Below are positions 5,317 through 21,822 of a stretch of DNA of 40,466 nucleotides, one piece after another. The position numbers and the translations under genes are program-made. Source of the DNA: Candidatus Hydrogenedentota bacterium (GTDB lineage Bacteria > Hydrogenedentota > Hydrogenedentia > Hydrogenedentales > JAEUWI01); assembly GCA_016791475.1 (NCBI GenBank), contig JAEUWI010000063.1, positions 1 through 40,466 of the forward strand. The letters are read 5' to 3'. Positions within the stretch are counted from its first letter, which is position 1. Every line of letters begins with the position of its first letter. The notes beneath the pieces are model-generated. The model searched no databases and had not been told where the DNA came from. It saw only the letters and a list, made by a program, of their open reading frames with translations.

Positions 5317-5660
5317 AGCCGCTCAACCCGGCGGCTCACCCGCACCGCGCTGATCGGCGTATGCGTTACACCAAATATCAGGTGTGGAGAATCCAATGAA
5401 TTCTCCCACCATTTCCGGGAAATCCGGTATAATGGATCAAAAGTGAACTTAAACGGAACGTTGTGAAGCCCGGTTTCACTTCCCGGGGCCAAGGTCCGCG
5501 CAGTCTACCCGCGGTCGGTCGAGGATGAGCGTCGGCCGCACACCTGCGCGGTCTCCATCCGGGTGACGAAAACGGGCTTGAGGTCTGCGTAGATTCCGGG
5601 GATAGCGTCCGCAAATACGGGGCATCGATCGGCGAGACGGGCAACAGGAAGGCAAGTTGG
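5317..5660. other. Divergent intergenic region between surE and the receiver gene
   Basis: About 340 bases without a convincing gene. A TATAAT hexamer at 5428-5433 faces the receiver gene, but no good -35 lies 15-19 bases before it. No repeat or RNA gene was recognised. AGGAAGG at 5646-5652 is the ribosome site for the next gene. Confidence 0.5.
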
Positions 5661-17333: not shown

Positions 17334-17734
17334 CAGAAAAGCAGATCCTCTTCGTCGGGCTCGGGGGTCGGTTCCGGCTCGTAGCTCTCCTGCGGCGGGG
17401 CCACGGGCTTCGCGGGCGTTGCGGGCGCGCGCGTCGCCGCGGGGGCGGCGGCGGCGGGGACCTTCGCTGGCGCGGGCGCCGACACGGGAGCGGGCGGCGC
17501 CTCTTCGTCGAAGGGCTGGGGCTCCTGATCGCCGTCGGCGTTCTTCACCAGGATTTCGATTTTCTTCTCCGCCTCGCTCAGGGCCTTCTCGCAGCGCCGG
17601 GCCAGGGTGATGCCCGATTCGAATTGCTTCAGCGCGTCGTCGAGGGAAAGTCCACCCTCTTCCAGCGCGCCCACAATCGCTTCCAGGGCTTCCAGATCCT
17701 GCTCAAAGGTTGCGTCACTCTTGCTCTTGGCCAT
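17333..17734 (-). CDS. xseB: Exodeoxyribonuclease VII small subunit with extended acidic C-terminal tail
   Basis: A 133-residue protein. Residues 1 to about 68 are the XseB helical hairpin ([30 protein letters not shown], then [18 protein letters not shown]), which packs in several copies on the XseA helix. Typical XseB proteins stop at about 80 residues. Here a Pro/Ala-rich linker of some 50 residues follows, then an acidic end [10 protein letters not shown]. The overall plan (folded domain, disordered linker, acidic tip with terminal Phe) resembles the SSB C-terminal peptide; the last five residues also loosely resemble beta-clamp-binding peptides. The gene overlaps xseA by 20 bases and ispA by one. 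Core function is certain; the tail role is inference. Confidence 0.95.
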
Positions 17735-19079
17735 GTGCCTCTTCCTCTATGCGTCGCACCGTCGCCGTGACCGCGCCGCGTCCAAATCGTACATAAATTT
17801 CATCGTCTTGCTTCAACGCCACGGCCTCGCGTACCAAGGTCTTCTCCGGCAGCTTCCAACCCACCGCATAGCCGCGCGACAAAATCGCCAGCGGGCTTAG
17901 CGCGTCCAATTGCGCCACCAGGGGCCTGAGTTTGTGTCGGCCGGCTGCCGGAATGTCGCGTCCCGCATTATTCAGGCGTTGTTCCAGTCGTTTCAGCCGT
18001 TCGCCCGCACGTTCCAATTGTATCTTTGGCGACAACAGGGCCAGTGATCGGGCGGCCCGATCCACGCGCTTCCGGGCCTCGGCCACGCGATCCGCCATGG
18101 CGTCTTCGAGGCGCATGCGATACTCATCGCTCGTCTGACGACGCTGGCGCACCAGTTCCTGGGGACGCTGAAGCGTGTAGCTGTTCTTTGCCATTTTCAC
18201 CCGGTGCCGCGCGTCGGTCAGGCTGCGATCCAGGGCCTGGCCCAGACGTTTCCGCAGGCGCGCGACTTGTTCGCCGAGGGCCGCCTGTTCCTTCACCACC
18301 AGCTCCGCCGCCGCCGAAGGCGTGGGCGCGCGCAAGTCCGCCGCAAAATCGGACAGAGAGTAGTCCACTTCATGGCCCACGGCGGAAATGATGGGCGTCT
18401 TCGCTTCATAGATCGCGCGCACGACCACTTCTTCGTTGAAGGACCACAAGTCCTCCAGCGAGCCGCCGCCGCGCCCCACGATCATGACATCCACACCCCA
18501 GGCGTCCAGTGCGCGGATACCCGCCGCAATTTCCGCCGCCGCACCGTCGCCCTGCACCCGCGCGGGGTAGATGATGACATGAATCCCGCCAAAGCGCCGC
18601 GTAAGTACATTCAGAATGTCGCGAATCGCCGCGCCGGTGGGTGAAGTCACCACGCCGACCTTTCGCGGCAGCAGGGGCAGGGGCTGCTTATGGATGTCGT
18701 CGAAGAGCCCTTCCGCCGAGAGCTTTTTTTTCAATTTCTCGAAGGCGAGTTGCAGCGCCCCCAGCCCCTTGGGTTGCATGTCGCTGATGATGATCTGGTA
18801 CGCACCCCGGCGTTCGTACACCGTGATTTCGCCGTGGGCCAACACCTCCAGGCCCGCTTCCGGCGAAAACTTAAGCCGCGAGAGCTTGCCTTTGAACATC
18901 ACGGCGTCGATTTGGCTGTTTTCGTCCTTCAGCGTGAAATAGACGTGGCCCGACGAGGCCAATTTCCAGTTCGAGATTTCACCCGACAGCCAGACGGTCC
19001 CTAAGTCGTTTTCAAGCAGGGATTTAATGCGGCGCGTGAGCTGGGTAATGGTGAGTATGGAGTCGCTGCTGGTGTTCAT
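17715..19079 (-). CDS. xseA: Exodeoxyribonuclease VII large subunit
   Basis: A 454-residue catalytic subunit of the bidirectional single-strand exonuclease VII. It has an N-terminal OB-fold ([21 protein letters not shown]), a nuclease domain with [42 protein letters not shown] and [29 protein letters not shown], a long basic coiled-coil helix (about 260-390), and the C-terminal [14 protein letters not shown] segment. All are typical of XseA and the length is normal. No clear ribosome site precedes the ATG at 19079. It is the first gene of a three-gene overlapping operon with xseB and ispA, and is transcribed divergently from the arsM operon across a 116-base gap. Confidence 0.97.
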
Positions 19080-19136
19080 GGGTTGGATTGTAATAGATCA
19101 TCGAAGGATAGTGCGAGCCAACACGCAAAACTTCTG

Positions 19137-19165
19137 TTGCATTTTCAGTAAATTCAGAATATACT
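19137..19165 (+). promoter_or_regulatory. Sigma70-type promoter of the hgcC-like/arsM operon
   Basis: TTGCAT (19137-19142) and TATACT (19160-19165) are separated by exactly 17 bases in an AT-rich patch unlike the surrounding GC-rich DNA. The -10 ends 30 bases before the start codon, which has GAGGAG upstream. Confidence 0.65.
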
Positions 19166-19171
19166 TATATT
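19158..19171. promoter_or_regulatory. Palindrome over the -10 box, candidate operator
   Basis: AATATACTTATATT is a perfect inverted repeat of six bases with a two-base centre. It covers the -10 hexamer, a position where a bound repressor would block transcription. A candidate binder is the AbrB-fold protein encoded by the first gene. Confidence 0.45.
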
Positions 19172-19195
19172 GTTACGTTTGCAGAGGAGATTGGC

Positions 19196-19480
19196 ATGAA
19201 CGAAAGCAAGGCTCAAAGCTGCTGCGAGTCCAATGAAGCCTGTGCCACGGCTGGATTCAAAGTGGAGTCCATCATCAGCGTGGATGAGCGGGGCCAGATG
19301 CTCCTGCCCAAGGATTTTCGTGCCCGGCATGGTATCGAACCGGGTGAGAAGCTGGCGCTGGTCAGCTTTGAGAATGAAGGCGCGCTGTGCTGCATGTGTC
19401 TGATCCGTACCGAGGCGCTGGGCGGGATGATCCGCAATCACCTTGGCCCCATGCTGAACCAGATTAACCCCAAGTCCTGA
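19196..19480 (+). CDS. HgcAB-associated (HgcC-like) AbrB/SpoVT-fold protein, cysteine-rich
   Basis: A 94-residue protein whose middle (SIISVDERGQMLLPKDFRARHGIEPGEKLALVSFE) is a SpoVT/AbrB swapped-hairpin domain. Cysteines lie on both sides: C9-C10 and C16 in the N-terminus, and C65-C66-x-C68 in GALCCMCLIR. The end LGGMIRNHLGPMLNQI matches the family known as HgcAB-associated protein, which also occurs next to arsenite methyltransferases. hgcA and hgcB are not in the window. It is first in a two-gene operon with arsM, 16 bases upstream of it. The paired cysteines suggest binding of thiophilic metal or metalloid, perhaps as a sensor; that is inference. Start is set by GAGGAG upstream of ATG 19196. 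Confidence 0.78.
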   Translation: MNESKAQSCCESNEACATAGFKVESIISVDERGQMLLPKDFRARHGIEPGEKLALVSFENEGALCCMCLIRTEALGGMIRNHLGPMLNQINPKS

Positions 19481-19496
19481 ACAGGAGGATGCCAAC

Positions 19497-20330
19497 ATGG
19501 CCATCACGAAGATACATAAAGACGTGCAGAAGACCTACGGCAAGATCGCGCGCAGTGGCGGGAGCTGTTGCGGCCCGAGCACCTGTTGCGGGGCGCCGGA
19601 TCCTTCGTTCTTTCGCTCCGTAAGCGGAAACATCGGCTACAGCGATGCCGAGATGGACGCCGTGCCCGACGGCTCAAATCTCGGGCTGGGTTGCGGCAAT
19701 CCGACGGCCCTCGGTGCGCTGAATGAAGGTGACACGGTGATGGACCTCGGGTCCGGCGCGGGCTTTGATTGCTTTCTGGCCGCGCGCAAGGTGGGGGAAA
19801 CGGGCCGGGTGATCGGCGTGGACATGACGCCGGACATGCTGGAGCGCGCCCGGGCCAATGCGGAGAAGGGGGGCTTCAAAAACGTAGAATTCCGTGAGGG
19901 TCAGATCGAATCGATACCGGCGGCCGACGGCGAAGTGGACGTCATCATCTCCAATTGCGTGATCAATCTCTCGCCCGACAAGCTTCAAGTATTTCGCGAG
20001 GCGCTGCGCGTGTTGAAGCCCGGCGGTCGGATTTTTGTGTCCGACATCGTGCTGGAGCGCCACCTGCCGTGGTTCGTTCGCCGTTCGGGCGCCATGTATT
20101 CCGCGTGTATCGCGGGCGCCCTGCTGGAGCCCGAGTATCTCGGCGCAATCAAAGCCGCGGGCTTTGAGGATATCACCATCGGCAAGCGGGCGATCTACAG
20201 CGTGGACAACCTGGTGGCGGATCCCGGCGTGGGCAGGATTACCCGTTTCCTGCTGACCATACCCTACTTCCGCGCCATGGCCTCCGGTGTGGTCAGTCTG
20301 GGCGTATCCGCCACGAAGCCCCGTTCCTGA
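19497..20330 (+). CDS. arsM: Arsenite S-adenosylmethionine methyltransferase
   Basis: A 277-residue cytoplasmic SAM-dependent methyltransferase that converts As(III) to methylated arsenicals. The N-terminus carries the usual SCCGPSTCCG cysteine cluster. The Rossmann core has VMDLGSGAGFDCFLAA (SAM motif I) and GVDMTPDML. The three family cysteines that bind As(III) are present: C66 (GLGCGNP), C154 (ISNCVINL) and C204 (YSACIAGAL). Motifs and length match ArsM. AGGAGG sits about eight bases before ATG 19497, and the HgcC-like gene is 16 bases upstream, so both are expressed together. No arsR, arsB or arsC gene is adjacent, so methylation may be the stand-alone arsenic response here. Confidence 0.95.
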   Translation: MAITKIHKDVQKTYGKIARSGGSCCGPSTCCGAPDPSFFRSVSGNIGYSDAEMDAVPDGSNLGLGCGNPTALGALNEGDTVMDLGSGAGFDCFLAARKVGETGRVIGVDMTPDMLERARANAEKGGFKNVEFREGQIESIPAADGEVDVIISNCVINLSPDKLQVFREALRVLKPGGRIFVSDIVLERHLPWFVRRSGAMYSACIAGALLEPEYLGAIKAAGFEDITIGKRAIYSVDNLVADPGVGRITRFLLTIPYFRAMASGVVSLGVSATKPRS

Positions 20331-20520: not shown

Positions 20521-21822
20521 ATGGATGGATGGACAGGAATATGGGGCAAGGTCGGTGCCCGCTCCCCGGGATTCGGGCCGGGAGTGTGGAAGCTTATGCT
20601 GCCGCTCTTCGTTCTGGGCGCGCTTCGAGGTGTTGCCGCGGAATCCGTCGAATCCCCGTCGCCCCTTGTTTTCGGCATGTCCGCCGCCCTCAGCGGGCCC
20701 GCGGCGGACCTGGGTATCGAGATGTCCCTCGGCGTTCGCACCGCCTTCGACGAACTGAACCGGGCGGGTGGAGTACAGGGGCGCCCGCTCCAGTTGATCG
20801 CCCTCGACGACGGCTATGAGCCGGAGCGGGCGGTGCCCAACATGCATCGTCTCATTGAGCAGGACAACGTGCTCGCCCTGGTGGGGAACGTCGGCACGCC
20901 CACGGCCGTGGCCGCGGTGCCCATCGCAAATCGGGCGGGGGTCCCCTTCTTCGGAGCTTTCACCGGGGCGGGGGGGGGGGGCGGGGCGCCCCCGGCGCGC
21001 GGGGGCGTGGACTACCCGGCGCGCGACGCGCCCCCGACGCCCCCGGATCGCGTGGTCGTGAACTACCGGGCGAGCTACGCGGAAGAAACCGAGGCCATGG
21101 TGGACGCGCTCGTAGAGGTCGTCGGCGTGCGCCCGGCCGAGATCGCCTTCTTTACCCAGCGCGACGCCTACGGGGACGCCGGTTTCGCGGGCGGCGCGCG
21201 CGCGTTGAAACGGCATGGGCTGGAGGATCCCCTCAACGTGGCCCATGGCCGTTACGAGCGCAATACGCTGGCCGTTGAGAACGGACTCGCCGATCTCCTC
21301 TTGCACGATACGCTCCCAAAGGCGGTGATCATGGTGGGTGCCTATGCGCCCTGCGCCGAGTTCATCAAGCTCGCCCGGACTTCGGGACTCAACGGGTTCT
21401 TCCTGAATGTGTCCTTCACCGGCGCGGAGCCCCTCCGGCTTGCCCTGGGTGAAGCGGGAGAAGGCGTGATCATCACGCAGGTTGTGCCCCACTTCGAATC
21501 CGCCCTTCCGGCCGTCGAGGCCTATCGAAAGGCCCTCAGTAGCCTCGACCCCGAAGCCGCACCCTCCTTCGGTTCCCTGGAGGGTTATATCGCCGCCCGT
21601 ATCCTTTGCCGCGCCCTCGAATCGGTCTCCGGCCCGATCGGGCGGGATGCCATCATCGAGTCCCTCGAATCCCTGGGTACATTTGATATCGGGCTCGGCA
21701 CGCCCCTGGAACTCGGACCGGACAAGCATCAGGCCTGCCACCAGGTATGGCCCACGGTGATCCGGGGCGGTCGGGTCGTTCCCATGGAATGGTCCGATCT
21801 CGCGTCGCGAAGCGGGGAATAA
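20521..21822 (+). CDS. Periplasmic substrate-binding protein (Leu/Ile/Val type), kinase-linked
   Basis: About 433 residues. A hydrophobic stretch ([17 protein letters not shown]) serves as signal peptide. Type-1 periplasmic binding-fold motifs follow: [65 protein letters not shown] and [15 protein letters not shown] 20521 has AGGAAG upstream but gives a long pre-signal segment; ATG 20596 starts directly at the signal peptide. No ABC permease or ATPase follows. Instead a hybrid histidine kinase begins five bases after the stop, so it probably delivers ligand information to the kinase sensor domain. Around residues 148-175 the usual LLR-PPDR-like stretch is replaced by a Gly/Pro/Ala run encoded by extreme-GC DNA with 12 Gs, which may be mutation or sequencing error. 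Confidence 0.85.
20965..21050 (+). other. Extreme-GC segment with a 12-G run inside the binding-protein gene
   Basis: A run of 12 G (20970-20981) opens about 85 bases that are almost entirely G and C. It encodes [12 protein letters not shown] and a Pro/Asp/Ala-rich stretch where homologous binding proteins have a short ordered loop before PPDR-VNYRASY. The frame stays open. It could be a slippage-prone phase-variable tract or a consensus error. Confidence 0.7.

Follow-up and report, generated by a model that had tools for sequence, protein, structure and literature searches.

A cysteine-rich HgcC-type protein encoded ahead of arsM: a probable autoregulator of genes that methylate arsenic and mercury

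Introduction

To our knowledge, small cysteine-rich DNA-binding proteins of the HgcC type are known solely from mercury-methylation gene clusters. In archaea, and in some bacteria as well, an AbrB/PrlF/MazE-like gene stands ahead of hgcA (PMC10349881), and a putative regulator upstream of hgcAB has been reported in 112 genomes (PMC7438021); judging from position and annotation, these reported regulators appear to be HgcC. Arsenic has also been tied to hgcAB control: as cited in a passage of PMC10349881, hgcAB is controlled in Pseudodesulfovibrio mercurii ND132 by an arsenic-responsive ArsR-like protein. How the methylmercury genes hgcAB are controlled outside ArsR-bearing bacteria is an open question, and in the open-access literature that we searched we found neither an operator for HgcC nor a link between AbrB and arsM.

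Here we describe an HgcC-type gene that, like the regulators reported upstream of hgcAB, belongs to that family by its curated cut-off and opens an operon whose role is to methylate a thiophilic element, but which precedes arsM in a genome where hgcA is absent. AbrB of Bacillus and relatives shares its DNA-binding domain family; the site given for AbrB, TGGNA-N5-TGGNA (PMC11497800), is similar in half-site length and spacing, and close in geometry, to the TCWGA-N4 arrangement in our window. The HgcC-type proteins differ from AbrB in that their putative units are TCWGA with a 9-bp spacing, most loci having three of them, in that Cys pairs have been added, and in that they seem to act on a single operon and not on a global regulon. 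If the model proposed below holds, they would resemble the ArsR repressors of ars operons in being small, Cys-bearing autorepressors encoded first in an arsenic operon, while belonging to another protein family; likewise, the ND132 regulator, as cited in that passage, links arsenic to hgcAB through an unrelated protein.

An HgcC-type gene paired with arsM

The window (the whole stretch of 40,466 nucleotides that was analysed) is contig C63 within a 7.7-Mb genome (G000). On its + strand, a gene of the AbrB/MazE family at 19196-19480, preceded by a ribosome binding site read from the sequence (AGAGGAG, 19183-19189, + strand), encodes 94 amino acids with Cys at positions 9, 10, 16, 65, 66 and 68. 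The product scores 104.4 bits against the HgcC model NF040962 of NCBIfam (2e-30; cut-off 70) and passes PF04014 (MazE_antitoxin/AbrB) narrowly, at 25.3 bits against a gathering score of 24.7; no ArsR family, and hence no ArsR/SmtB winged helix, is among its Pfam and NCBIfam matches. After a gap of 16 nt that holds a second ribosome binding site read from the sequence (AGGAGG, 19483-19488, + strand), arsM follows on the same strand (19497-20330, +) and encodes an arsenite methyltransferase of 277 amino acids that scores 340.5 bits against NF008823 (cut-off 263). Its Cys 66, 154 and 204 stand in the contexts LGCGNP, SNCVIN and SACIAG, which we take to be those of the arsenite-binding and catalytic cysteines.

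The annotated neighbours of this pair are the divergent xseA (17715-19079, - strand; TIGR00237, 512 bits), which lies outside the operon, and a gene for a periplasmic binding protein (Peripla_BP_6); arsR is absent among these two. A long G-rich run within the Peripla_BP_6 gene (20963-20987) may be an assembly or sequencing error that distorts the protein there.

Across the whole of G000 HgcA gave zero matches at E<=1e-10, and none of the 68 genomes analysed from the phylum contains an HgcA over the cut-off. Since arsM is the next gene and G000 holds no such HgcA, the 94-residue protein is a sequence member of the HgcC family, by score, without the hgcAB neighbourhood that stands behind the family's name. 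The earlier note on this DNA had described an HgcC-like protein translated just before arsM without hgcAB, and both the gene pair and the absence of hgcA proved real. Elsewhere in the phylum, an HgcA-like protein (L062, G054:C332:6556-7290) reaches 171.5 bits against the cut-off of 275 and is perhaps a related corrinoid protein.

Partner genes among relatives

Screening the 68 phylum genomes with NF040962 at its cut-off identified 7 with an HgcC-type gene, and in 7/7 loci arsM lies directly 3' of it; the arsM products of the six relatives are 49-66% identical to that of the window. A wider draw of 386 genomes added 11 HgcC genomes from outside the phylum, carrying 14 loci between them, and eight of these loci (L084, L085, L086, L087, L089, L090, L091 and L093) have arsM immediately 3', making arsM the commonest partner overall (15/21 loci). 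The remaining partners are more varied. At L083 they are hgcA and hgcB, both above their cut-offs, and at L098, a further locus, a 5'-damaged hgcC stands ahead of hgcAB; second HgcC-type copies in three genomes of one small phylum (L094, L095 and L096) are followed by a 4Fe-4S/nitroreductase fusion gene. Some copies have neither arsM nor hgcAB beside them, namely L092, with a distant methyltransferase, and L088, with no recognisable partner gene. An hgcAB-bearing genome (G296) and an arsM-bearing one (G156) belong to the same genus, so the partner varies even among close relatives.

A protein tree of the 21 copies is poorly supported as a whole; the copies of the window's phylum cluster together (90/93), and the hgcAB-linked copy is not firmly placed. 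No HgcC was found in 398 genomes of the phylum of Desulfosporosinus, a search of genome contigs with the single 94-residue protein returned only distant AbrB-type matches, and the same protein had zero matches in viral contigs, phages and plasmids.

The promoter and a putative 9-bp operator

The operon promoter is of the sigma70 type, with a -35 element TTGCAT (19137-19142, + strand) and a -10 element TATACT (19160-19165, + strand). Across the 7 aligned phylum promoters the spacing of 17 nt is constant, TTG of the -35 element and the entire -10 element are invariant (7/7 each), and TCAG units within the spacer are conserved; in many relatives the -35 element reads TTGACA.

The conserved element of this promoter, an array that the earlier note missed, consists of TCWGA-like units that keep strictly to a 9-bp lattice, which overlaps the promoter. 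The unit is pseudo-symmetric, and successive W positions lie 9 bp apart. In the window the lattice spans 19145-19167, overlapping the spacer and the -10 element, with putative operator units TCAGT (19145-19149, + strand), TCAGA (19154-19158, + strand) and a degenerate third, ACTTA (19163-19167, + strand), which overlaps the -10 element and reads ACTGA in 4/6 orthologues; the 9-bp lattice of the first two is conserved in 21 loci, and the lattice position of the third is likewise conserved. With TCAGT, TCAGA and ACTTA the window's lattice scores 12 of 15, placing it among the weaker ones, and 1/300 shuffles equals that score.

A promoter-anchored pattern version of the motif, TCNGNNNNNTCNGNNTATACT, occurs once in the 7.7 Mb of G000, at the operon described here. 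It is present at all 7 phylum operons, with 3 further sites in the same 7 genomes, the number that a reversed-pattern control also gives, and it is absent from G001, G003 and G010, three relatives without an HgcC over the cut-off.

Because the motif was first spotted by eye in the 7 phylum loci, the fair test is the one that used the 14 other-phylum loci. There, the summed best three-unit scores reach 184 at period 9, against 121-139 at the other periods from 5 to 15. In the 21 upstream regions together TCAG/CTGA occurs 61 times, against a mean of 20.3 and a maximum of 31 in 300 shuffles. Between pairs at most 25 nt apart in these regions, same-strand offsets are 9 (13 cases) and 18 (11), TCAG-to-CTGA offsets 10 (9 cases) and 19 (4), and CTGA-to-TCAG offsets 8 (7 cases) and 17 (2), values that together define a single 9-bp lattice; pairs at any non-lattice offset number only 3. 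A lattice score of at least 13 of 15 is reached by 62% of the regions upstream of hgcC and by 0.1% of background windows, and 24 of the 27 lattices at that level in 285 kb lie upstream of hgcC-type genes, whereas 11 weaker AbrB-type genes have upstream scores of 8-11, with none above 11. At the low end, 4/21 loci score just 11, a value that 16-21 of 300 shuffles reach.

The lattice is found also at L083, the sole intact hgcAB example, and upstream of L094-L096 it is built of the related weaker units ACGGA, ACTGA and TCAGA. On this comparison it is a predicted cross-phylum operator for HgcC-type proteins, common to arsM operons and, on the hgcAB side, to L083 only. Its units lie across the spacer and the -10 element in the window's phylum, and at or just downstream of the -10 element in most other-phylum loci, which have a TTGACA -35. 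Because in either position the units coincide with DNA that RNA polymerase has to sit on or move past, repression would be favoured; given the mostly downstream position in other phyla, the precise way in which the polymerase would be blocked may differ between loci.

The earlier note had also placed the -10 element inside a palindrome, AATATACTTATATT, and had read this as the operator, to be conserved in orthologous operons. The repeat is present at 19158-19171 and does enclose TATACT, but it is not a conserved element: inverted repeats of this size (6-nt arms, short loop) arise in 125/1000 dinucleotide shuffles of 19080-19200 (12.5%), and in six orthologous promoters complementarity survives at just 2-4 of the 7 position pairs of AATATACTTATATT, so that the symmetry is not kept, an outcome that the note itself had named as refuting. 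Autoregulation by an AbrB-type protein, the other part of that proposal, finds support in the 9-bp lattice across 21 loci rather than in AATATACTTATATT. A 22-bp palindrome suggested by the consensus of the phylum's 7 promoters was rejected as well; it amounts to two lattice units plus the -10 element and fails in other phyla. At one of the loci (L009) the contig end upstream of hgcC is an almost pure run of G, an assembly artefact.

Cysteine pairs and predicted structure

Nearly all arsM- and hgcAB-linked copies carry an N-terminal CC and a second CC in the predicted strand 63-71, and many have a third CC just ahead of the DNA-binding region; L085, L090 and L093 do not have every pair complete. 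The nitroreductase-linked paralogs have lost two of the three pairs, keeping only the one ahead of the DNA-binding region. Since these paralogs lack the first and last pairs and keep the lattice, the operator type seems not to require those pairs; they accompany the metal(loid) methylation genes, as would be expected of a sensing site, a pattern that is suggestive only. An AlphaFold2 monomer of the 94-residue protein (pLDDT 76, pTM 0.60) puts C65, C66 and C68 in a predicted strand (residues 63-71), and its N-terminal pair falls where confidence is low; for the swapped-hairpin fold of the AbrB/MazE family, comparison of this model with the PDB (Foldseek, VIA-align 2) gave no confident match.

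A proposed mechanism and its alternatives

We propose that the hgcC-like gene and arsM form a two-gene operon controlled by its first product. The HgcC-type protein would bind along the promoter's row of TCWGA-like units, which have a 9-bp spacing, and would thereby block RNA polymerase. Thiophilic metal(loid)s, with As(III) or a methylated arsenical the likeliest here, would bind the Cys pairs and loosen the protein from the DNA, whereupon regulator and ArsM would be made together and arsenite methylated; the same type of regulator and operator would also serve hgcAB in some other bacteria. We give this model as a whole (an AbrB-family autorepressor on a 9-bp lattice whose Cys pairs sense metal(loid) and release arsM or hgcAB) a probability of roughly 0.6. 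Its parts differ in strength. Comparison of genomes shows the gene pairing, the conserved candidate operator and its overlap with the promoter, and by the same comparison autoregulation through the 9-bp array is well supported; DNA binding by the 94-residue protein, repression rather than activation, and the identity of the inducer are what we infer from these, and sensing of arsenite by the Cys pairs is plausible.

The same autoregulator on the same lattice might instead sense thiol or redox state, sulfide or another soft metal through its Cys pairs. Such pairs would bind many soft ligands, and the partner genes do vary, from arsM and hgcAB to the 4Fe-4S/nitroreductase protein; we nevertheless hold this to be unlikely, as arsM is the partner at 15/21 loci and the ArsR-like hgcAB regulator cited in the passage of PMC10349881 is also arsenic-responsive. 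The assignment of the lattice to the HgcC-type protein, whose binding there is itself inferred, could be questioned too, with some other, unlinked regulator acting at the units and the HgcC-type protein doing something else. That the lattice tracks hgcC across phyla and three kinds of neighbour gene, that the anchored motif is nearly unique to the window's promoter in its genome, and that the bipartite AbrB site TGGNA-N5-TGGNA has a similar geometry (PMC11497800) make this very improbable.

Release of AATATACTTATATT by arsenite, the version first suggested, has in its favour the presence of the repeat around the -10 element, yet with one shuffle in eight giving such a repeat and its symmetry lost in orthologous promoters we find it scarcely credible. 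Hardly any weight, similarly, goes to the protein being the antitoxin of a MazE/PrlF-type toxin-antitoxin pair. The Pfam MazE_antitoxin match points that way, and this role has been proposed for archaeal hgcAB neighbours (PMC10349881), but the partner is arsM or hgcA, and no small toxin-like gene lies downstream in the loci inspected.

Preferring, then, the metal(loid)-responsive autorepressor, we regard the HgcC-type protein as a probable switch that controls its own gene along with those for arsenic and mercury methylation. More tentatively, and at somewhat short of even odds, HgcC-type proteins may be widespread as a class of autorepressors that respond to metal(loid)s without being ArsR proteins, defined by a 9-bp TCWGA lattice and having arsM as the usual target and hgcAB as another, which would place both methylations under one shared switch; this would add a further family of arsenic sensors alongside ArsR. 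An operator common to arsM and hgcAB operons makes the unexplained HgcC gene a testable regulator, and a defined operator allows its regulon to be predicted from sequence.

The hgcAB operon at L083 encodes one more small Cys-rich protein, MENEIKKENNGSSCCSGNESKKEQTSSCGCGCSQESSSCCRSGIIIVVVVLIAAAVWFFVK, between hgcC and hgcA (about 5440-5630, - strand); it has a hydrophobic C-terminal stretch and is possibly a membrane-held thiol protein of that operon.
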